30,545 nucleotides of DNA from a virus: IMG/VR virus record IMGVR_UViG_3300030328_001137, positions 1 to 30,545 of that record. One strand, given 5' to 3'. The notes beneath the pieces are model-generated. The model saw only the letters and a program-made list of their open reading frames with translations, was not told where the DNA came from and did not search any database. A program made the position numbers and the translations under genes. Positions 269 through 17,879 of the stretch are shown here, one piece after another; the stretch's first letter is position 1, and each line of letters begins with the position of its first letter.

Positions 269-562
269 ATGAAAAATCCTTTAGCAACATTTTACGGGTG
301 GCAAGTTAGTTCAGGAGCATTAGATGGTTGGACATCTTATCATATAGCAGCTGGATTATTTATAGCTAAGATAGCACAATGGTTAGGTGCATCAGATTTA
401 TGGGCAGTCTTATGGGTACTTATAATAGGTATAGCATGGGAAATATTTGAGGTATATGTAGAAGGTACAGAAGAAACTTATGGGACCAAGCAAAGATGGG
501 CAATTAATACAGCATCGGATGTATTTGTTGAAGTAGCTGCTGCTTGGTGGATGGTATTATGA
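269..562 (+). CDS. Small multi-pass membrane protein, VanZ/DUF2238-like pattern, possible lysis role
   Basis: This 97-aa protein is strongly hydrophobic. Helices at about residues 22-40, 42-60 and 80-97 are separated by an acidic loop. It carries a conserved-looking histidine in the first helix (WTSYHIAAG), a WEIFE motif near residues 57-61 and a late Asp in a hydrophobic context (ASDVFVEV). The H...WEhfE...D arrangement recalls VanZ-like and DUF2238-like membrane proteins, although this copy is shorter. An AGGTG Shine-Dalgarno-like sequence precedes the ATG. It overlaps the next small gene by ATGA. It sits just upstream of holin-like genes and an endolysin, so a lysis or superinfection-exclusion role is possible but not shown. 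Confidence 0.75.
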   Translation: MKNPLATFYGWQVSSGALDGWTSYHIAAGLFIAKIAQWLGASDLWAVLWVLIIGIAWEIFEVYVEGTEETYGTKQRWAINTASDVFVEVAAAWWMVL

Positions 563-678
563 ATGAAGATTGGAAAGATTACGTTTCTATAATAGCATTT
601 TTGTTTATAGTACTTGGTGGTTTAGTGCTTATTGGAAGTTGTGATAGTGGCTGGTCAATAGCTGGTTATGAGGTATGA
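559..678 (+). CDS. 39-aa membrane or lipoprotein-like peptide
   Basis: This small ORF starts in an ATGA overlap with the preceding gene and ends in an ATGA overlap with the next (ATG at 675), so it is translationally coupled on both sides. Its sequence is a short polar N-terminus (MNEDWKDYV), a hydrophobic stretch at about residues 10-26, then I-G-S-C followed by DSGWS, which fits a relaxed bacterial lipobox with Cys28. A lipidated product would be about 12 residues, as in very small outer-membrane spanin subunits, but it lacks the proline-rich character of Rz1. The alternative is a minimal single-pass membrane peptide. The gene call rests on coupling and composition; its role is inference from the lysis neighbourhood. 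Confidence 0.55.
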   Translation: MNEDWKDYVSIIAFLFIVLGGLVLIGSCDSGWSIAGYEV

Positions 679-1004
679 GTGATGGCAAACCTAAAACGGC
701 AAGGTCGTATCGTGGAACCATTCTCAATGACAACGCTATTGTATCTATCAATCTTAAGTGGGCTTTTCAAGTGTTGGCTCTTGTCGCTGGGCTTGTTTAT
801 TCGTACTTACAAATTGAAAACAGAATTGGTGAACTTGAACGAAGAGTTGAACTTGCTGATACCAACATTAAAGACCTTGTAAGTAAGCACATAGAAGAAG
901 AAGATAAAAAAATAACACAAATGCAAGAACAATTAGAATGGTACGAAACAGAATTAAATTTAAACCCTTTAAGTTGGGGAAAGAAAAAAAGAAAACGGAA
1001 ATAA
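675..1004 (+). CDS. Membrane-anchored coiled-coil protein 1 (109 aa)
   Basis: A polar basic N-terminus of about 27 residues is followed by one membrane helix (about 28-46), a heptad-rich coiled coil (about 47-95, many E/K/Q/L) and a very basic tail (GKKKRKRK). This is the layout of an Rz-like or XhlA-like lysis accessory protein: anchored in the inner membrane with a long helix on one side. It is the first of five consecutive proteins with the same plan (see 1069, 1373, 1651, 1895), all upstream of an M15 endolysin. It starts in an ATGA overlap with the preceding 39-aa gene. The last codons are an A-rich run, and a second ORF in the -1 frame overlaps them. No family assignment is certain. Confidence 0.75.
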   Translation: MSDGKPKTARSYRGTILNDNAIVSINLKWAFQVLALVAGLVYSYLQIENRIGELERRVELADTNIKDLVSKHIEEEDKKITQMQEQLEWYETELNLNPLSWGKKKRKRK

Positions 1005-1069
1005 CTTTAACAGAAGATGATTTTAATCATAACTATTTTATAAATCGTGAAATGCGGAGAAAAAGATAA
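938..1069 (+). CDS. Possible overlapping 43-aa ORF or -1 frameshift extension
   Basis: This ORF, in the -1 frame relative to the 675-1004 gene, begins within that gene and ends TAATG, so its stop overlaps the start of the 1069 gene. Without it there would be a 64-base gap here in an otherwise gapless cluster. The predicted tail (ITLTEDDFNHNYFINREMRRKR in two pieces around DDFNHN) looks protein-like: amphipathic, with a basic end. There is no clear Shine-Dalgarno sequence before ATG 938. It could be expressed by reinitiation, or as an extension of the upstream protein by slippage on the A-rich run near 980-990, which is not a canonical X XXY YYZ heptamer in the zero frame. Treat as tentative. 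Confidence 0.35.
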   Translation: MVRNRIKFKPFKLGKEKKKTEITLTEDDFNHNYFINREMRRKR

Positions 1070-1386
1070 TGGAATTTATGGAAGTGTACGCAGAAGGGGG
1101 TATGATCGCTGTCGTAGGGGCTTTGCTAGTGTTTATGGTATTCTCTATGAACAAAAGAGGGTCTGCTCAGGAAGAAAATTTGCGAGACCTAAAAACAGAA
1201 AATAGAGGTCAAAGTGAAACACTTGAAAATATGGAGGGTATGGTTATTAAACTTATTAACCGTTGGAATCAAAGTGACGACAAGCTTGACAGAAAATTTG
1301 ATTCAATTACGAAGGAAATTAATGATTTGGATAATCAAATATCGGAAATAAAAGGCGTTATTAGCAGATTAAATGGAAAACACTAA
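1069..1386 (+). CDS. BhlA/UviB-like holin candidate (membrane-anchored coiled-coil protein 2)
   Basis: This 105-aa protein begins with a short acidic N-terminus, then a glycine-containing membrane helix (about residues 11-27, GGMIAVVGALLVFMVF), a basic stop-transfer (NKRG) and a long hydrophilic coiled coil to the end. BhlA/UviB-type holins share this plan: an N-terminal aromatic/acidic segment, a single helix whose motif resembles G-x-x-A-V-x-x-x-L-L-F, and a charged coil. GGAG precedes the ATG at suitable distance and the start overlaps the preceding stop as TAATG. It would act in the inner membrane to trigger release of the endolysin encoded at 2148. Holin function is inferred from topology and context. 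Confidence 0.7.
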   Translation: MEFMEVYAEGGMIAVVGALLVFMVFSMNKRGSAQEENLRDLKTENRGQSETLENMEGMVIKLINRWNQSDDKLDRKFDSITKEINDLDNQISEIKGVISRLNGKH

Positions 1387-1654
1387 ACCTATATCAGATA
1401 ATAGTAGCTTAAGTATATCATTACCAATGATTATACAAGCAGTAACATTTGTTGTAATGTTAGTATGGGGATATAGTCAATTAAATGCTCGTATATCATT
1501 TTTAGAATATCAAGTTGCAATGAATGAATCTCATATTGAAGATATAGAAGAAGATGCGGAAGCTAATCAAGATGCAGAAATACCAGCTGATATTAAACAA
1601 AATCAAAGAATTGAATATCTTGAAAAAGAAGTAGAGAGACTTAGAAACAAATGA
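1373..1654 (+). CDS. Membrane-anchored coiled-coil protein 3 (93 aa)
   Basis: It starts 14 bases before the end of the preceding gene. A polar N-terminus (MENTKPISDNSSL) leads into a membrane helix at about 18-36, followed by an acidic linker (EDIEEDAEANQDAE) and a C-terminal leucine-heptad helix (RIEYLEKEVERLRNK). The topology is N-in or N-out, single-pass, with a soluble coil. It repeats the plan of its four neighbours with little obvious sequence identity by eye, so they are either diverged paralogs or convergent. The acidic spacer distinguishes it. It may be a holin, pinholin regulator or spanin component; the sequence does not decide. Confidence 0.72.
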   Translation: MENTKPISDNSSLSISLPMIIQAVTFVVMLVWGYSQLNARISFLEYQVAMNESHIEDIEEDAEANQDAEIPADIKQNQRIEYLEKEVERLRNK

Positions 1655-1911
1655 AATTAAATACTAATATATCACTAGAAAATATTGTAACTATAGTAGC
1701 TTTAATTTGTTCTGTAACATTAGCATTTGGATTTATGCAATATGATATAGATATAATTAAAAAAGACTTAGAATCAAAGGTTGATAAAAAAGAGGTTGTA
1801 GCAGATAGGAAACTAATAACTTATAAATTAGATATAATAACTGCTGAGATCGAAGAAATGAAAATTTCATTAAAGGAAATAAAAGGAGAAATACATGGAC
1901 TTCGTAAGTGA
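1651..1911 (+). CDS. Membrane-anchored coiled-coil protein 4 (86 aa)
   Basis: The start overlaps the preceding stop as ATGA. A short N-terminus (MKLNTNISLEN) precedes a membrane helix of about residues 11-28 (IVTIVALICSVTLAFGFM). A long amphipathic helix rich in K, E, I and L then runs to the end, with regular hydrophobic spacing (IIKKDLESKVDKKEV; ITAEIEEMKISLKEIK). XhlA-type and similar phage lysis accessory proteins have a helix and coil of this size, usually in the opposite order. GGAG near its 3' end serves as the ribosome binding site of the next gene. No enzymatic motif is present. Confidence 0.72.
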   Translation: MKLNTNISLENIVTIVALICSVTLAFGFMQYDIDIIKKDLESKVDKKEVVADRKLITYKLDIITAEIEEMKISLKEIKGEIHGLRK

Positions 1912-2146
1912 ATGGTTAAGCTGGTCTAATTTACTATATATGGTAGGTTTAGGAATAGCAGGTTATGCTACATCAGTAACTGCAAAAAATAGAAATATTG
2001 TTGTGCAGATTGGCGAATTAGTTAAGGCTTTAGAAGATGGATTAAAGGATAAGAAGCTAACTAAATCTGAAAAGGATAGAGTTATGAAGGAAGCCTTAGA
2101 TGTTGCTAAAGCAGTTATTCAAAGTAAATGGAAACTTTGGGGTTAG
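1895..2146 (+). CDS. Membrane-anchored helical protein 5, holin-like (83 aa)
   Basis: AAAGGAGAAATAC before ATG 1895 is the best Shine-Dalgarno in this cluster. The protein has an amphipathic aromatic N-terminus (MDFVSEWLSW), one membrane helix (about 11-29, NLLYMVGLGIAGYATSVTA), then a helix containing LTKSEKDRVMKEALDVAKAVI. The L-T-x-x-E-x-x-x-x-x-x-E-A-x-x-V motif is typical of small phage membrane proteins encoded next to endolysins. The stop is one base before the endolysin ATG. It is the second-best holin candidate after the 1069 gene. With three neighbours of similar topology, the division of labour cannot be read from sequence. Confidence 0.74.
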   Translation: MDFVSEWLSWSNLLYMVGLGIAGYATSVTAKNRNIVVQIGELVKALEDGLKDKKLTKSEKDRVMKEALDVAKAVIQSKWKLWG

Positions 2147-2147
2147 T

Positions 2148-2525
2148 ATGCCACGCTTTGGAAAAAGATCTAAAGAAAGATTAAAGGGAGTTAAGCCAGA
2201 ACTCGTAAATGTTCTAAATGAGCTGGTAAAGATAATGGATGTTACCATTATAGAGGGCTTAAGAACAGAGGCTAGACAGATAGAACTTGTAGCTCAGGGA
2301 AAATCAAAGACAAAGTATAGTAAACATTTAGAAGGCAAGGCAGTTGACTTAGCTCCCTACCCAATTGATTGGGAAGATAGAGAAAGATTCCACTACATGG
2401 GTGGAATGGTTCGTGGTATAGGACAGCAGATGGGTGTAAATATTCGCTGGGGAGGCGACTGGGATAGTGATGGTGAAGTTAAAGATAATGGCTTTGATGA
2501 CCTAGTTCATGTGGAGATAAAATAA
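2148..2525 (+). CDS. Endolysin, M15-family zinc peptidase (VanY/L-alanyl-D-glutamate endopeptidase type)
   Basis: This 125-aa enzyme carries the M15 signature S-x-H-x-x-G-x-A-x-D (S58, H60, G63, D67) and a terminal zinc-ligand histidine in DLVHVE (H121). An EGLRT arginine (R39) precedes the motif, as in the family. Such enzymes cut peptide crosslinks of peptidoglycan after holin-mediated release. The length equals a single catalytic domain with no wall-binding module. Start choice: ATG 2148 lies two bases after the previous stop, while a longer reading from 2100 would be buried in the preceding gene. The five membrane proteins just upstream form a matching lysis cassette. Assignment to peptidase specificity (D,D- versus L-Ala-D-Glu) is not possible by eye. 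Confidence 0.9.
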   Translation: MPRFGKRSKERLKGVKPELVNVLNELVKIMDVTIIEGLRTEARQIELVAQGKSKTKYSKHLEGKAVDLAPYPIDWEDRERFHYMGGMVRGIGQQMGVNIRWGGDWDSDGEVKDNGFDDLVHVEIK

Positions 2526-9758: not shown

Positions 9759-12700
9759 ATGTCATATGCTCAAGAGTCTATACGTGTTAAAAGACTTATT
9801 GATATGTATAGGGGCAACCCTAATATGTTCAATGAAGAACAGCTTGACGAATTACAGGATCTAGCAAAGCAAACTAACCTTACTTTTAACAGGGTATCAA
9901 CAGAATTTAATTTAAGAAATGTAGCTGAGTCTGCAGTTGGTGGTCTTGCAGAAGGTTTCACTACTATACCTATAGGCAGACAGCCTCGCAATACATATGA
10001 AGCATTAGCACATTCAATGGGACACCTTGTAGGTTTTGCTCCCGGTATTGCTGCTATCCCATTAAAAGGTTTGGCTGCAGGTGCATCTAGATTAGGAATG
10101 ATGGGCGTTAAGAAAGCTTTTGAAAAAGGGGCATTTGGTGCTCAATCAATAAATAAGTTTTCAGTACCTATGATATTTGGTGATAAAGCTAGTGATCTAT
10201 TAAATAGAGGTATCGCTAAAGCTGGATTAGAATCATTAGATTATTTGAAGCGTGGTAGTGCTACACGTGGTATTATGAATGACGCTGTTCATTTAGGTGT
10301 AGCTAGTGGTGCTAGTAGTATCTGGGGAGGACCAGATGAAGTATTAAATTCTATGATGCATGGTGCAATTGCAGGTGGTGCTTTTGGTGGGTTAGGAAAC
10401 TTTAGACAAATAGGCAACTTACTTAAAAGTAAGAATGTTCAAAATCATCAGCAAGCAGAGCAATTAATTAAAGCTGGTATAGGTTCTATGATAACTGGAT
10501 TACCTACCACATTACAAGAACAACCTATTGAAATACAAATGTACCAGTATTTACTGGGAGGATTCTTTGGATATAATTCAAAAGAGACACAAGACTACGT
10601 CTATAAACAATCTGCCGACCAAGCTCGAATTAGCATGCTTAAAATGGGTTTATGGAAAAACGAGCAAGAATTAGATGTATATTTGAATAATGAGGCTAAA
10701 AAACGTAAAGGTGACAACTATAAGCCCGAAGATGTAGATAATATAGCTAGGGAACAAGCAGGTAAAATAATACAAGGTGGTATTCTTGTTGATCTTGAGG
10801 CTTGGGAAAATCCTATGCCTGAAGATTTAGGTGACCCAAGGCAAAGTTCAAGACATCAAATGCTTGTTCAAATATTTAGAAAGCCAGATGGAACAATAAG
10901 TTCTGTAGAATCTATGCCAAGAGGTGGGGATTATCGTGGTCTTAGAATGGACTCTAAACATCCTATTGGAGAAAGTCGTACAGGTGAACCTGCGTGGGAT
11001 ATTCCTGCTGAGAAGTTTGATGGTAGAGAAATTATTACTTTGCAATATATTAATCCTAAGGGAGTTGAAGGTTCTAAAGGTACAATATCTGCATTTAAAC
11101 CATTTGCTGGTAAGCCTAACTTTAAAGAAGGTAAGATAGATTACCATGTAACTCAAAAAGATTGGTTTGCTATTGAGGACCATCTTAATTCTCAGAATAT
11201 GTATATAGATGGAGGTGTTAAGGATAAGGGTGTATTAAAAATTAGTCTTCATCATCCTGATATAAATCGTGTTGGTATAGATAATATGATAGATACCCTA
11301 GCAAGAGGTATGCTGCAGGAAAGATTAGAGACAGAAAATTTAAGTGCTGGTGAGCAGAAGAGATTATTTAATGAATTAAAAAATGAAGTAAGAGAAAATT
11401 ACGATTTTAGCGTAGCTAAAGAATACGAATGGTTTCAAGATGGTATTGAATCAGAAGGTATGATGCAGCATGTTAAAGATATGCATGACAAGGCTTGGAA
11501 AAGTAATCTTTTATATGAAGCTGAAAGACACGGATTATTTACAAGAGGTGGGGAAGACTTTACTCAAGTAGGGAAGTTAATGAATAGCAAGGTTGGTGCT
11601 AGAAATGTTGTAGATAGAAATAAGCGTGAGCAGGTATTTCACACAAAGAATATTCCAACCAATTTTGAGATTAATGGAAAAAAAGATTTAAACATAACAA
11701 TACTTGAAGATTTTATTGCTAGTAAGGATGAACATCCTGATATGTGGTATAAAACTGAAATAACTAAGTCAGATGGTAGTAAGGAAATAGTTGAAAGACC
11801 TTATGAATCTGCTACTGATGGTACAATATATATTAGAAGTTCTGTATGGAATGAACTTGTTAAGAAGTCTGGGTTTATGTCTGGTGACAAGTTTGTAAAT
11901 GATCTATTAGAAAAGACTGGAATGTTAAAGCCTACAATTGCTACTAAGTTAGATACGGGTGTAATGATTGGTAAGGCAGCAGGTCGCAGAGCAAGTGAGT
12001 CTATGGATAAGTTTATGGAAGCTAATGATTTAGATATGGTTCTAATGTCAAGTGCAGCTAAACATAGAGGTGGTATAAAAGCTGCAAAATATGACTACAA
12101 AGATGGAACATATTTTCCTATGGACCAAATGGATATCAGAAAGATGCCGATATCAGACCTTAGATTAGACCTTGGTGTTTATGAAAATCCAAAGAAATCA
12201 AATGCTCCGCAGATGTTAGTACGTCAGTTGTTTGGTAATTTAAATGAAGGTCAACATCCGGGCGTAGTAGATCATGTATTTAAAACAATATATGAGCCTA
12301 TTATTAATGGTAAACCAGAGCAAAATAAGTTAATAGAAGATTATATTAAAAAGCCGTCTAAAGACTTTGACTTTAAAAATTTAGATATAGACAGCATTTC
12401 ACTTAAGAATATTCATGAAATACTGGTTTCTGATGGTAAAAACCTTAAAAATTTAAGGCAGTATGTAAGAGACCATATTATGCGAGTAGATAAAGATAAG
12501 CTACAAGAAGGTGAAGCTGATCTTAATTTTACAGATGACCAATGGCGTGATTATATATTTAGAAACAAGCGTATCTTTAATACAGTTGGTACAACAGATG
12601 CAGTAGCTGATGGGTTTAAAGCAACTAATAAGTTTTGGGAACACGCTTATAAAAGATATATAATAGACAGATATCTTAGACCTAAGTGGCAGTTTTCTGG

Positions 12701-15700
12701 TAAAGGATGGGCAGCACCTTACGATGTAGAGGTATTAAAAGATAATAAGGTTGAGGCAGGTACATTCTTAATGGATAACGGTAAGAAGAATATGCCTGTA
12801 GATTTTAATGCAGATATAATTAAGATATTTTTTCCTAAGAAAAAAGGTAACAAAGTTACTTTAGGTGAAGTTGTTGCTGCACAAAAAAGAATTGAACGAC
12901 CTGAGAATGTAAACAAATTAAAATCACTTGGTGTATATAATAAAGCTAAGAAAGCATTAGATAAATTTGATTATGAATTTGTTGTTATTCGAGTACCTGC
13001 TGATTCATCTAGTGGTGCTAGAGTATTAAGATTTAAAGGTTTTACAGGACAGGAAGGTGAAGCTATTGTAACGCATCCAAAAGATGATGCGTATTTAGGT
13101 GGTATGGATAAAGATTCTGATTCAATGTTTGTTTACCACGGGTTTGATAAAAAAACTAAAGATGCTTACAATTCTGTTAAAAATGAATGGGAAAAGAATG
13201 GTATTGTAATTGAAGGTAAGTCTAGTGAGTTAGATAAGGTATTTAATGAGCAAGCTAATGAAGCTCCATATTTACATGCGGCTAGTATTCTATCTCCCTC
13301 TATGAGAAAAGAAGTAGCTCGCAATGTATATCAAGGTAATCTTGGTATAGGCTGGGCTATTAACTCAAGAATGACAGTATTATCTTGGATGGATATGGCT
13401 GCAGCTAATGGTGGTGAGCTTTCAGTTAAGGCACATAAAAAGAAAGGTTATGGGTTAGATTATAAATCTGATTTAGGTGAATACATATTAAGATTAAAAC
13501 CAGATTCTAGTTATAATGTAAGACGCTATGCTAGAGAAATGTTAAATAGGTCTGCTGATGCTGGTAACTATCCTAAGATGAGATCATATACAAGATTTCC
13601 AGAGCAACTATTTAAACAAGCTTTTGATGTAGAGTATATTCCTCCAAAGTGGATGATGGACCCTAAGTATGACACTATGAGAAGTTCTTATTCTTCAGCA
13701 GATTTTAGAAACATGACAAACTCTACTGACTTAGGTAAGGTTCATAAGATGAATCAAACTATGAAACCTAATGCTAGATCTAAAGCAGAAGAAGGTTCTA
13801 TGGAACTTCATGAGTTTCAAGAAAGACTTGCAGCAGAAACTTTAACGTCTGAATCGTTTAAACATGAGCCTAAGAATTTAACTAGTTTAATAGCGAAAAA
13901 AGCTAAGGCTGATGGATTAGATAAGATGACATTTACTCATCCGTATCAATCTAATGTTAGGCTGTTAAGTGCATTAAGAGACATTATAAATAAGGACCCG
14001 TTAGCTAAAGAATTAGATTTAATGATTGGTCTTTCTACTGAAAAGAATATTAGACAGGGATTAAATAAGGCTGCAATTGCAGGTGAAAAAAAAGATTGGA
14101 AGAATTTTTCTGAAATACTAAGAAAAGAAAATATTAAAATAGCAAGTTTTCTTTCTTTAGTTAGAAAGGCTCATGCTATAGAGCAGAGAATTTTATCAGA
14201 AGGTGGCAGCAAGCAAGATGTAACTAGGAATTTAAAGGTATTAGTTAAGGAAGCAGATAAGTTAAAATTAAAATATAGGACCATCGATGATAATCCAGAT
14301 GCAGAACATAAAAATAGTTCTTTTAATGACTATGATTCAGATGTTATTGAATTAAAAAATAGAATAAGGCAGCAACTTGGTGAACAAGGCATGAAGTCAG
14401 AGCCTTTTGAAGAGTACCTTGACCTTTATTTATTAAGTCCTTTTCTTAAATCTCAACCATTTGGATACCATAGTAGAATGCCGTGGCAGTCTAGAGCAAT
14501 AAGCAATAAGGCTGTGCAGGAAGTATTTAAAGAATTAGATGTTGTAACAGAGATGGCAGGATTAGATGCAACTAAACAAGTAGATAAGCTTGAAGGATTT
14601 AAAGATTATATGCATCAGCCCTCTGGTTACGCAAAGATCAATAGTAGTTTTTCTAAGTTTATGGGGCAAGAATTTGTAGGAGATGTTGAGTTTGATGCTA
14701 GAATAAAAAAATTAAAAGACCGTATGGCAGAACATCCTTTCTGGGCTGAACATCCAGAGGATGCTTTTATTCAGTATACTACTGAGTTTGAAGGTGGTGT
14801 AGGTAGAGATTTTAGTACAATGACAAAGAATGATGTTAATAATCTATTAAGATTCTTTGACTACTATGACCCTAAAAGCAAGCAAAGCTGGATAGATAAT
14901 TTTGTAAAAGACAACTTCCCTGCTACTAAGGATAGGGACCCGATGCGTATACAGAAAATCTTTTACTACAATAGACCAGCTACGTTAGATAAGAAGACTC
15001 TTGCTTATGAGGTTAATATATTTAAACAGGCTAATGTTCCTGTTAAGAGTAAAGATAGGGTAGTTATTAGAGATGTAAAAAGAATTATGTCTACTCATGG
15101 AACAATGAGAGAATGGTTAAGTAAGATGGTGGTTCAATCTGAAGCTAAGGTAACTAGAGAATTAGATAAAATGGATGAAGGACCATTTAGCAATCTTCAA
15201 AATCTTACTCCGAATGAACGTGTGGAATTAATGAATCATGTAGTAGATGTAATAGAGAAGAAGGTTAAGATAGAAGATATTCCAGATTATTTAAATAAGA
15301 AATTTGAAATATCTACAGGTAAAGACCAGATAAAAACATTTACTGGTAAGGAAATGATTGAATCTTATGTGGGTAAGGTTAAGGCTGATTTAGAGCAGTT
15401 TGGTAATGAATATATTTATGCAACTAAAGATTGGAAATCTGTAGAAAGTGATATTGCAGCAGGTAAATCTGTTCAGGTATCAGATTATATGAGATGGAAT
15501 AAGGGTAAGTTTGACTTTAATAATTTTTATAAAAAGGTAGTTGAACCTGCTTGGCAAGGTAAGGATATAACAGAGATTCCTTTAGAAGCTATTTATAGAG
15601 CACAGTATGAGCATAAGCTTGAGCAAGTTATTAAAAATAAAAAGATAGATAACCCGTCTAAGTTTAGAAAACTATGGAGAAATAACGGATTAAAGGATAA

Positions 15701-17879
15701 GAAAACTAAAGAGAAATTAGAGACTGCTTTTAAACCTATAGGCAGGAAGGATAAAGAAACTTATTTCCCCCATATGTTTAGATCAAATCCTACAAAAGCA
15801 GAGAAAAGAATTCACGATGAGTTTTATAATAATCAATTAGAATTAGAATTAAGTCGGTTATTAAGTAACCCTAGTAACACTATTAAATATTTAAAAGAGC
15901 AAGGCAAGCTATTAAATAAAGAATCTGGCGATAAATTAAATAAAAGACTTGAAGAATATGAAAAGACTAAAGATATTAATATTCTAAAAGAATTAATAGA
16001 GCCAGCTATAGTAGCTAAGTATCAATATTTAAGAGAAGGATTATCTCATCCAACTCAATATGGAGAGAGTCATATACATGAAGCATTAACTCAGGTTGAT
16101 ATGTCTTCTGATGTTGCTGCTATTGTATCTGATTTAGTTAAAGTAGGATTCTTTTCTAGACCTAAGAATATATTAGAGAGACAAGTAGAAGAGAAGCCGG
16201 GATATATGAAGGAATATGATGCTATTAAAAGATATAAAGAAGGCATTATAAAATCACGCTTTAAAAATCTTGCTGCTCTTATGGGAGATAGACAGATAGA
16301 GTTAATGACAGATAAAAATCCTTTTGGTAAGTATACTAAAGACCATGCAGAGTTCTACAGAATGTATCTTCGTGATTCTCTTGGATATAAGACTACTTTT
16401 TCTGATTGGGTTTTGAAGGCTATGGAGAGTAGTGACCCATTAAAGTTAAAAAAGAATATGTATTATCAGACTAGCGACCATGAAATGATTCAAAAGCTAG
16501 ATCGTATATTAAAGTTTTTTAAGACAGATAAGCTGCCGTTTAAATTATCTAGTAATGATAAGGCTAGGTCTGAACAACTTTCTAGAATAATACATGATAT
16601 GGGTGCACTAGAGGCAAAGTATCAGTTACTTACGCTACTTGCTAATACTGGTGTAGCTACTGGTAACTTATTTGGTGGTTCTTTGAACACAGTTACTAAG
16701 ACTGGTTTAAGAAACTTTACTAGAGCAATGAGTTTTAAATACCTTGAGAAGAATTTACTCAAAGATGTTGATGGTAATTATCAATTAAAGTTTAAAAATG
16801 GTAAGTCTGTAAAGACTAAAGAAGACTTGAAGAAATGGGCGATTGAGAGGGGAGTTGTTGAACAATATATAAAGAACGAACTTGATTTCAACCCAAAATT
16901 AAGTACCATAAAAAACAAAAAATCAATACAAGAATTTGCTAAGGATTTTCAGAAGTTATTATTAAGGAATCCTGATCCTAATAAAGAGACTATTATGGAG
17001 CTTGCCAGAAGGCATGGAATAGATGAAGCTATTCTTTTTGCAGGTTCATTTCCTATGCAAGCATCAGAAAGATGGTTGAGAATAAATTCATTCTTATCAC
17101 ATATGTTGCAAATGAGGGATAGTTTTAATGGAGTGTCAGGTAAGGTCGATATGAACAGCGAAGCTGTGGTTAAACACGCTTTAAAAGGCGTTGAGGCTAC
17201 TCAGTTTGTTTATCATAGCGTTGGTAGAAGTGCTTTCATGCGTACAGCTACTGGTAAGGTACTTACTAGGTTTAAAAATTATGTACAAAACCAAATGGCT
17301 TTTCAAAGAGAAATTTATAAGCAAGCTAAGATGTATGGCTTTGAGCCGGGTACAAAAGCACATGATGATTTTCAAAGACTATTTGTTATTAATGCAATGC
17401 TAATGGCGTTAGGCTCTGCTTATGCTTACAGCTTATTTGATGTAGCTACTCCTCCTCCATTTGATTGGATGGTAGAGACATCTGAATTGCTTTGGGGCGA
17501 TGCTAGAGAGCGAGAGAGAGCTTTTTTTGGTACATATCCAAGGGCTATAGCACCTTTACAAATCATAACACCGCCTATTGCAAGAATACCTCAAAGTTTA
17601 GTAATGTTGCTTAATGGAGATTGGGAAAGATTTGCCGATTACCAAGCGTGGACTCTTTTCCCGTTTGGTAGGTTTGCTAGGTCCGTTGATAAAACATTCA
17701 ACGAGCCTTATGGCACTACGGTTGGTAGAGGCATGCAACAATTTTTTAGATTACCTACTGACAAGTTTGTACGAAGGTATGAGAAAAAACAAATAGAAGA
17801 TATGCGTAAAGATTATATAGCGACTACACTTGATGACCTTGACCAAGAAGGTGAAGAGTGGGATAATAAGGAAAATTAA
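9759..17879 (+). CDS. Giant virion protein containing a single-chain two-barrel RNA polymerase core (2706 aa)
   Basis: Seen: residues 1-130 form an N-terminal module shared with the 9152 protein. At 1075-1130 there is R1078-x-P1080, then E1099-G-x-A-I-x-x-H1106-P, then D1117-x-D1119-x-D1121-x-M-x-V. Known: cellular RNA polymerase beta-prime has NRAP, EGKAIQLHP and NADFDGDQMAV in this order, with the Asp triad binding catalytic magnesium. Here the R-to-first-Asp distance is 39 versus 35 in E. coli, and Gly of DFDGD is Ser. At 740-830, SSAAK768HRGGIK774 and DLRLDLGV...Q resemble the beta barrel (two lysines, then IVLNPLGV...Q). A G-N-L-G-I-G patch lies at 1193-1198. The C-terminal 250 residues have RFKNYVQNQ (about 2504) and a hydrophobic helix (about 2538-2560). 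Inference: virion-carried RNA polymerase fused to ejection modules, analogous to crAss-like phage and N4 giants. No Shine-Dalgarno. Confidence 0.75.
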   Translation: MSYAQESIRVKRLIDMYRGNPNMFNEEQLDELQDLAKQTNLTFNRVSTEFNLRNVAESAVGGLAEGFTTIPIGRQPRNTYEALAHSMGHLVGFAPGIAAIPLKGLAAGASRLGMMGVKKAFEKGAFGAQSINKFSVPMIFGDKASDLLNRGIAKAGLESLDYLKRGSATRGIMNDAVHLGVASGASSIWGGPDEVLNSMMHGAIAGGAFGGLGNFRQIGNLLKSKNVQNHQQAEQLIKAGIGSMITGLPTTLQEQPIEIQMYQYLLGGFFGYNSKETQDYVYKQSADQARISMLKMGLWKNEQELDVYLNNEAKKRKGDNYKPEDVDNIAREQAGKIIQGGILVDLEAWENPMPEDLGDPRQSSRHQMLVQIFRKPDGTISSVESMPRGGDYRGLRMDSKHPIGESRTGEPAWDIPAEKFDGREIITLQYINPKGVEGSKGTISAFKPFAGKPNFKEGKIDYHVTQKDWFAIEDHLNSQNMYIDGGVKDKGVLKISLHHPDINRVGIDNMIDTLARGMLQERLETENLSAGEQKRLFNELKNEVRENYDFSVAKEYEWFQDGIESEGMMQHVKDMHDKAWKSNLLYEAERHGLFTRGGEDFTQVGKLMNSKVGARNVVDRNKREQVFHTKNIPTNFEINGKKDLNITILEDFIASKDEHPDMWYKTEITKSDGSKEIVERPYESATDGTIYIRSSVWNELVKKSGFMSGDKFVNDLLEKTGMLKPTIATKLDTGVMIGKAAGRRASESMDKFMEANDLDMVLMSSAAKHRGGIKAAKYDYKDGTYFPMDQMDIRKMPISDLRLDLGVYENPKKSNAPQMLVRQLFGNLNEGQHPGVVDHVFKTIYEPIINGKPEQNKLIEDYIKKPSKDFDFKNLDIDSISLKNIHEILVSDGKNLKNLRQYVRDHIMRVDKDKLQEGEADLNFTDDQWRDYIFRNKRIFNTVGTTDAVADGFKATNKFWEHAYKRYIIDRYLRPKWQFSGKGWAAPYDVEVLKDNKVEAGTFLMDNGKKNMPVDFNADIIKIFFPKKKGNKVTLGEVVAAQKRIERPENVNKLKSLGVYNKAKKALDKFDYEFVVIRVPADSSSGARVLRFKGFTGQEGEAIVTHPKDDAYLGGMDKDSDSMFVYHGFDKKTKDAYNSVKNEWEKNGIVIEGKSSELDKVFNEQANEAPYLHAASILSPSMRKEVARNVYQGNLGIGWAINSRMTVLSWMDMAAANGGELSVKAHKKKGYGLDYKSDLGEYILRLKPDSSYNVRRYAREMLNRSADAGNYPKMRSYTRFPEQLFKQAFDVEYIPPKWMMDPKYDTMRSSYSSADFRNMTNSTDLGKVHKMNQTMKPNARSKAEEGSMELHEFQERLAAETLTSESFKHEPKNLTSLIAKKAKADGLDKMTFTHPYQSNVRLLSALRDIINKDPLAKELDLMIGLSTEKNIRQGLNKAAIAGEKKDWKNFSEILRKENIKIASFLSLVRKAHAIEQRILSEGGSKQDVTRNLKVLVKEADKLKLKYRTIDDNPDAEHKNSSFNDYDSDVIELKNRIRQQLGEQGMKSEPFEEYLDLYLLSPFLKSQPFGYHSRMPWQSRAISNKAVQEVFKELDVVTEMAGLDATKQVDKLEGFKDYMHQPSGYAKINSSFSKFMGQEFVGDVEFDARIKKLKDRMAEHPFWAEHPEDAFIQYTTEFEGGVGRDFSTMTKNDVNNLLRFFDYYDPKSKQSWIDNFVKDNFPATKDRDPMRIQKIFYYNRPATLDKKTLAYEVNIFKQANVPVKSKDRVVIRDVKRIMSTHGTMREWLSKMVVQSEAKVTRELDKMDEGPFSNLQNLTPNERVELMNHVVDVIEKKVKIEDIPDYLNKKFEISTGKDQIKTFTGKEMIESYVGKVKADLEQFGNEYIYATKDWKSVESDIAAGKSVQVSDYMRWNKGKFDFNNFYKKVVEPAWQGKDITEIPLEAIYRAQYEHKLEQVIKNKKIDNPSKFRKLWRNNGLKDKKTKEKLETAFKPIGRKDKETYFPHMFRSNPTKAEKRIHDEFYNNQLELELSRLLSNPSNTIKYLKEQGKLLNKESGDKLNKRLEEYEKTKDINILKELIEPAIVAKYQYLREGLSHPTQYGESHIHEALTQVDMSSDVAAIVSDLVKVGFFSRPKNILERQVEEKPGYMKEYDAIKRYKEGIIKSRFKNLAALMGDRQIELMTDKNPFGKYTKDHAEFYRMYLRDSLGYKTTFSDWVLKAMESSDPLKLKKNMYYQTSDHEMIQKLDRILKFFKTDKLPFKLSSNDKARSEQLSRIIHDMGALEAKYQLLTLLANTGVATGNLFGGSLNTVTKTGLRNFTRAMSFKYLEKNLLKDVDGNYQLKFKNGKSVKTKEDLKKWAIERGVVEQYIKNELDFNPKLSTIKNKKSIQEFAKDFQKLLLRNPDPNKETIMELARRHGIDEAILFAGSFPMQASERWLRINSFLSHMLQMRDSFNGVSGKVDMNSEAVVKHALKGVEATQFVYHSVGRSAFMRTATGKVLTRFKNYVQNQMAFQREIYKQAKMYGFEPGTKAHDDFQRLFVINAMLMALGSAYAYSLFDVATPPPFDWMVETSELLWGDARERERAFFGTYPRAIAPLQIITPPIARIPQSLVMLLNGDWERFADYQAWTLFPFGRFARSVDKTFNEPYGTTVGRGMQQFFRLPTDKFVRRYEKKQIEDMRKDYIATTLDDLDQEGEEWDNKEN

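Follow-up and report, generated by a model that had tools for sequence, protein, structure and literature searches.

Among the closest counterparts of the locus described here are the multi-gene holin-like cassettes of Gordonia phages, in which Pollenz and colleagues found up to four distinct holin-like genes per cassette and which, by their account, have not been described for phages of Gram-negative hosts (PMC9671378). In some actinobacteriophages, the endolysin gene is moreover uncoupled from the row of holin genes (PMC9671378). The spanins, which in their two-component form pair an inner-membrane protein with a lipoprotein, have been treated by Kongari et al., according to whom the genes of such pairs are embedded, overlapped or separated, beta character is commoner in separated o-spanins, and the combined periplasmic length of the pair can be as short as 62 residues (PMC6139136). 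RNA phages commonly have lysis genes overprinted in the +1 frame (PMC7693330); the defining traits of L-like proteins are a basic N-terminus, a hydrophobic stretch and an LS motif (PMC10229422).

Our locus lies near the start of IMG/VR record IMGVR_UViG_3300030328_001137, positions 1 to 30,545 of which (30,545 nucleotides) were analysed as a whole and are termed here the window. The initial annotation had reported five consecutive genes for membrane proteins of 83-109 aa followed by an endolysin, and ORFs of 109, 105, 93, 86 and 83 aa (A to E) were indeed found exactly at starts 675, 1069, 1373, 1651 and 1895, with an M15-type endolysin gene (LYS, 2148-2525) coming right after them. The count of five was nevertheless too low: two further ORFs (W, 269-562, and lip, 559-678) lie upstream of A, and another (A', 679/682-882) is overprinted within it. 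The features of the region are as follows:

269-562, forward strand: W, a 97-aa multi-helix membrane protein that starts the row of membrane proteins
559-678, forward strand: lip, a 39-aa lipoprotein-like ORF with a lipobox-like LIGSC
675-1004, forward strand: A, 109 aa, predicted N-in/C-out, with a single helix, a coil and a conserved tail (LNLNPLSWGKKKRKRK); i-spanin-like
679-882 (from GTG 679 or ATG 682), forward strand: A', an overprinted ORF of 66-67 aa in the +1 frame of A
938-1069, forward strand: S, a basic ORF of 43 aa, in the -1 frame relative to A, whose 3' end it overlaps
1069-1386, forward strand: B, 105 aa, predicted N-out/C-in, with its coil on the cytoplasmic side; holin/antiholin candidate
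1373-1654, forward strand: C, 93 aa, related to A but with no basic tail and no +1 overlap
1651-1911, forward strand: D, 86 aa, with a single helix and a coil
1895-2146, forward strand: E, 83 aa, with a weak N-terminal helix, predicted N-out/C-in, and a helical C-terminus without heptads; holin candidate
2148-2525, forward strand: LYS, a 125-aa M15_4-type endolysin with no helix or signal detected
from 2619: T, a tail-like gene downstream of LYS

The genes are tightly packed: lip overlaps both W and A by ATGA junctions, A and B are separated by a gap of 64 nt, B-C, C-D and D-E overlap, and E and LYS are 1 nt apart. Eight or nine small genes, mostly for membrane proteins, are packed ahead of a soluble M15 endolysin, with tail and head genes directly after the row. 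Two of the ORFs, A' and S, overlap A in other frames, A' being the clearer case. Among the listed ORFs of the window, a comparably hydrophobic segment occurs beyond the cluster only in a protein of 2706 aa, where it is internal, and the clustering of membrane genes is therefore real. (This large protein, encoded at 9759-17879, had no match in 50,697 GenBank phage records.) The dN/dS ratios of B, C, D and E (0.23, 0.21, 0.22 and 0.15, respectively) point to purifying selection, so that these genes behave as expressed proteins and not as chance ORFs.

The five proteins A to E had originally been described as sharing a single plan, with one N-terminal membrane helix and a charged coil, and as representing either a hetero-oligomeric holin/spanin complex or an expanded family. 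We measured helices as the Kyte-Doolittle maximum over 19 residues and scored the heptad pattern of coils by p value. A clear N-terminal hydrophobic helix is present in each of A to D (maxima 1.7-2.3; the maximum of W is 2.02) and the coil is significant in A, B and D (heptad p of 0.003, 0.001 and 0.002), but the shared plan does not extend to all five: the coil of C is borderline (p 0.066), and E has a hydrophobic maximum of only 1.16 (mean of 1.47 over 17 homologues) and gave no signal in the heptad test (p 0.58). In addition, the charges beside the helix suggest two topologies among the five, with A and C, whose N-termini are more basic, predicted as N-in (spanin-like), and B and E, with K/R after the helix, as N-out (holin-like). 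The excess of K/R after the helix is found in 24 of 24 homologues of B and in all 17 of E; the bias of D leans to the B/E side, and topology by charge count is weakest for D and for A, for which the N-in bias occurs in 17 of 27 homologues.

Profile-profile comparison (hhalign) relates only A and C (probability 96.8%, E 2e-10), both of which also match phrog_20984 (C at E 8e-10, A at E 2.7e-5). This one homology is what favours the view of A to E as an expanded family of paralogues forming one hetero-oligomer, a view that we consider highly improbable: all other pairs reach 24% at most (the next best being B-D, at 24%), the predicted topologies are opposite, E lacks heptads, and the proteins that occupy the same places in relatives have no significant sequence relation. 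The same comparison contradicts a common family for B, D and E, which was rejected. As judged from predicted topologies and profiles, A to E are mostly unrelated proteins of at least two topological classes, and the other original suggestion, a putative hetero-oligomeric holin/spanin complex, is plausible.

Relatives of genes in the row are present in more than 100 uncultured viral contigs, with all five of A to E recurring. A query of IMG/VR with T retrieved 51 loci that have these genes again, in unchanged order, and 545 relatives of A were reported in that database. When GenBank phages were queried with A, B, C, E and the tail protein, there were only two weak pelagiphage matches, both to C, and spurious-looking single matches to A and B; cellular genomes searched with A and T contained no relative. 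The two pelagiphage proteins, HTVC031P gp49 and HTVC028P gp24, are ~23-30% identical to C over 90-100% of its length, at an E of only 0.2-0.3, and HTVC028P has a gene annotated as an M15 peptidase a few hundred bases from the relative of C. The gene order lip-A/A'-B is kept in most loci, and the places after B are exchangeable: there follow C and/or X (another helix-coil protein), D or H (a protein with a C-terminal helix), E or Z (a helix-free protein), and then LYS or the tail gene T. Replacement of D by a protein with a C-terminal helix was observed in L012, L027, L028, L045 and L047.

At the upstream end of the row, copies of W that are 60-100% identical precede A in relatives, and W has no family match above cut-off in Pfam, NCBIfam or PHROGs. 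The cysteine of lip stands in a lipobox-like context (LIGSC) that would leave a mature part of 12 residues. In relatives, lip is often ~90 aa long and has a clearer lipobox (SAGC, VTGC and FTSC in L004, L003, L027 and others); the lipobox cysteine is invariant in eight of these long orthologues, as are DQDS, HWY and a second cysteine. A low-confidence AlphaFold model of a ~90-aa orthologue consists of a helix, a disordered linker and four strands, and a fold search against BFVD returned nothing at E <= 0.001. By HMM, 139 of 185 loci have a lip-family ORF immediately before A, as might be the case for a separated spanin pair, and 177 have B; these counts are not independent, since several of the loci share a contig and 80 were retrieved via their C gene. 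The tail of A (LNLNPLSWGKKKRKRK) is near-invariant across 22 homologues. A yielded weak, coil-driven matches to Rz-like spanin profiles (phrog_739, E 0.0035; phrog_7686, E 0.0057), B likewise gave a weak Rz-like match, and lip had no PHROG match to spanin families. No protein of the row convincingly matches a holin or spanin family in Pfam, NCBIfam or PHROGs, and the matches to these collections over all parts are mostly coil- or helix-driven noise. The combined periplasmic length of lip and A in the window is roughly 64 + 12 residues, compared with the 62 residues given above for the shortest pairs. Genes for o-spanins usually lie downstream of, or embedded in, the i-spanin gene; lip precedes A, the opposite of this position, which we count against a spanin reading.

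The overprinted ORF A' encodes a basic N-terminus, one hydrophobic helix and an amphipathic C-terminus, and its predicted structure is one long helix (pLDDT 78). The longest open run in the +1 frame of A spans 67 codons, compared with a mean of 29 when the synonymous codons of A are permuted (p 2e-4) and with 19 under resampling from genome codon usage (p 2e-4). Nine or ten stops are expected in the first 68 codons of this frame, the sole one present being the stop of lip at its very start. The other four alternative frames of A were not significant in the permutation test (one antisense frame reached p 0.01 under codon-usage resampling), and the paralogue C had no excess of +1 ORF. Across 25 homologues, Leu, Val and Ile codons ending in A (NTA) occur in 0 of 411 cases before A or G, a context in which they create a +1 stop, and in 49 of 109 (45%) before T or C, the zero being partly by construction in that the first stop sets the 3' limit of the region. 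With further loci added as a second set, all 59 distinct A genes that carry the N-terminal motif had at least 55 open codons in the +1 frame; over all loci, this held for 109 of 118 distinct homologues of A. Each of the 25 loci tested has an ATG or GTG for A' near the start of A, for the most part 4 or 7 nt after it, and in the window, GAGGT at 670-674 is too close to the ATG of A (675) and lies at the usual distance from GTG 679 and ATG 682.

It could be argued that A' is untranslated and that codon bias, RNA structure or chance keeps the +1 frame open: the synonymous divergence of A is not lower in the overlap (pS 0.57 vs 0.61), the hydrophobicity of A' does not exceed the synonymous null and so is what the residues of A predict (similarity being only slightly above null), and at one locus, L186, a full-length A has its +1 frame closed, such that the residues of A permit stops. 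However, the specific avoidance of stop-making codons before A or G, the lack of significance of any other frame in the within-gene permutation, the absence of the effect in C, and the start codon near that of A in every locus tested render this explanation distinctly unlikely. Judging from codon choice, the openness of A' is clearly selected, and its exact sequence would be constrained at most weakly: codon choice is far from expectation at some positions, by a statistic that ignores phylogenetic relatedness. The family search for A' returned isolated matches only (E 0.13 or worse). An L-like pattern (frequent LSG) appears in most rows of alignment A1, in a region that is constrained by the conserved K-W of A. 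A search of the literature for codon permutation applied to overprinted lysis genes of phages found nothing.

At the other end of A, S ends on the start codon of B (TAATG), and in the part of S beyond A, differences among 22 distinct homologous tails fall on codon positions 1:2:3 in a ratio of 463:274:1268, as expected of coding sequence. An alternative for S is a -1 frameshift that extends A; because the A-run near the end of gene A is not strictly conserved, a separate start for S is preferred. At other loci, a small Cys-rich (CxxC) ORF is found in place of S.

W, B, D, E and A' are all small membrane proteins beside an endolysin gene. A holin match at E 1 in Pfam or NCBIfam was found for none of W, B, D and E; B matched the holin phrog_1296 at an E of only 0.012, and the proteins replacing D gave weak matches to holin/hemolysin profiles. 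Assignment of B, E and the replacements of D to the BhlA, LLH and XhlA holin families, which had been considered, was dropped, there being no Pfam match. Inside the row of two relatives (L012:452-643 and L047:1950-2135) are short ORFs with a signal-peptide-like N-terminus and a lysine-rich tail ending in FFSKLF or FFSKAF; these are possibly secreted cationic peptides, and we take them, presumptively, as a disruptin-like lead. In rows that lack LYS, a block of small, very basic proteins (MPKKKDSRLARAG..., MATKSAKKTNEKMWK...) is encoded between B/C and D (L010:1806-2662, L014:4565-5552 and similar).

LYS itself matches Peptidase_M15_4 (PF13539; E 1e-5, 26.5 bits against a curated cut-off of 25) and phrog_465 (E 5e-44), and tblastn detected it in 1526 phage records, at ~45-51% identity among the matches listed. 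It has no helix reaching 1.4 and no signal, and a holin is therefore expected. In the window and in several relatives, LYS comes directly after the row; in two relatives, the M15 endolysin is elsewhere and the membrane row is still near the tail gene T, and LYS can thus be uncoupled from the row. At L056:1504-1896, the M15 endolysin is directly downstream of a terminase-like gene, with the membrane row elsewhere, and nine other records, among 12 searched, had no phrog_465 match, though these may be fragments. Between LYS and T, the window has a 33-aa ORF (2525-2626) that overlaps the start of T, and 50-aa ORFs ending in FNA are similarly placed in L003, L007, L008, L009 and L012.

From the anatomy of the locus we infer a function in lysis, and hold with modest confidence that the row serves a tailed phage, probably one with a Gram-negative host, as an enlarged lysis cassette consisting of a spanin-like pair (lip/A), holin/antiholin candidates, A' and a soluble M15 endolysin. 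Arguing for such a cassette are the adjacency of the endolysin, the dense packing, the kept order of lip-A/A'-B, the lipobox-bearing orthologues of lip with the four strands of their low-confidence model, the combined periplasmic length of lip and A, the findings on A', the opposite charge bias of A/C and B/E, the weak Rz-like (A, B) and holin/hemolysin (D replacement) profiles, the annotated M15 peptidase near the C relative of HTVC028P, and the lack of a helix in LYS; counting against it are the lack of a convincing family match, the endolysin being elsewhere in two relatives, the 12-residue mature part of lip and the weak constraint on A'. In this cassette, lip (outer membrane) and A (inner membrane, with a periplasmic coil and basic tail) would work as a two-component spanin of the separated type. 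The endolysin would be freed by a holin/antiholin set made up of B, E and either D or its replacement, and C, which has diverged from A, may join A in the coil. A' would be a second membrane product, made together with A from starts 4 to 7 nt after that of A, and may either effect or regulate lysis. The proteins would be distributed over consecutive layers of the envelope, from the hole in the inner membrane through the wall to the outer membrane, instead of forming a single homogeneous complex.

The two relatives with the endolysin elsewhere make it possible that the row functions in the virion or in exclusion. If it encoded membrane proteins of the virion or of genome delivery (minor tail or ejection proteins), with LYS placed there by chance, it would be understandable that the row adjoins the tail gene T even when LYS is absent or elsewhere, and that tail and head genes come directly after it. 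Small single-helix proteins and lipoprotein-like ORFs are, however, unusual as tail components, and with LYS directly after the row in the window and several relatives, and with places that are exchangeable with XhlA-like proteins, we regard this explanation as unlikely. We think it similarly unlikely that lip, A, A' and their neighbours provide superinfection protection or envelope remodelling, with only some genes of the row serving lysis. Small phage lipoproteins (of the Llp/Cor type) do often block receptors, and the row varies among relatives in the manner of accessory genes, but the close packing of the genes with the endolysin and the recurrence of lip-A-B as a core argue otherwise, and A, with its coil and basic tail, comes nearer to the plan of an i-spanin. 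Returning to the lysis cassette, we put forward more tentatively that a widespread group of uncultured phages may possess a lysis machine of ~8 small membrane proteins, in which the inner-membrane, spanin-like A carries A' (starting 4-7 nt downstream) as well as S, overlapping its 3' end, so that ~400 bases would give rise to three products. The analysis adds A', a conserved overprinted membrane gene of a kind that gene callers are likely to miss, and the A/A' overlap lends itself to a direct test, since A' can be given stop codons that leave A unchanged; L186 offers a natural closed frame.

Compared with phrog_20984 and the pelagiphage proteins gp49 and gp24, the common plan is an N-terminal helix plus coil; HTVC031P and HTVC028P each have one such gene, weakly matched at the protein level, and no row. 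Like the separated two-component spanins (T4 pseT.3/pseT.2; PMC6139136), the locus has an inner-membrane coil protein beside a lipoprotein-like gene in a lysis region, but here the lipoprotein gene is upstream of the i-spanin-like gene, the mature lipoprotein is very short, and there is no strong match to a known spanin family. As with the embedded lambda Rz/Rz1 genes and the MS2 L-like genes of RNA phages (PMC7693330, PMC10229422), the +1 frame of one gene conceals a second gene, for a membrane or lysis protein. A' resembles L-like proteins in its order of basic N-terminus, hydrophobic helix and frequent LSG, without homology to them and with the LSG partly forced by the invariant Trp of A; as points of difference from this group as a whole, it lies in the 5' half of its host gene, encodes no lipoprotein, and belongs to a dsDNA phage that also has an endolysin. 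As in the Gordonia cassettes (PMC9671378), consecutive and mutually distinct small membrane proteins are encoded near an endolysin, are swapped among relatives, and form a row separable from the endolysin. Those cassettes, however, mix proteins of 1-4 helices and act in a Gram-positive host, whereas nearly all proteins here are single-helix, and the present row is longer, has a lipoprotein-like ORF at its beginning, and contains overlapping genes.
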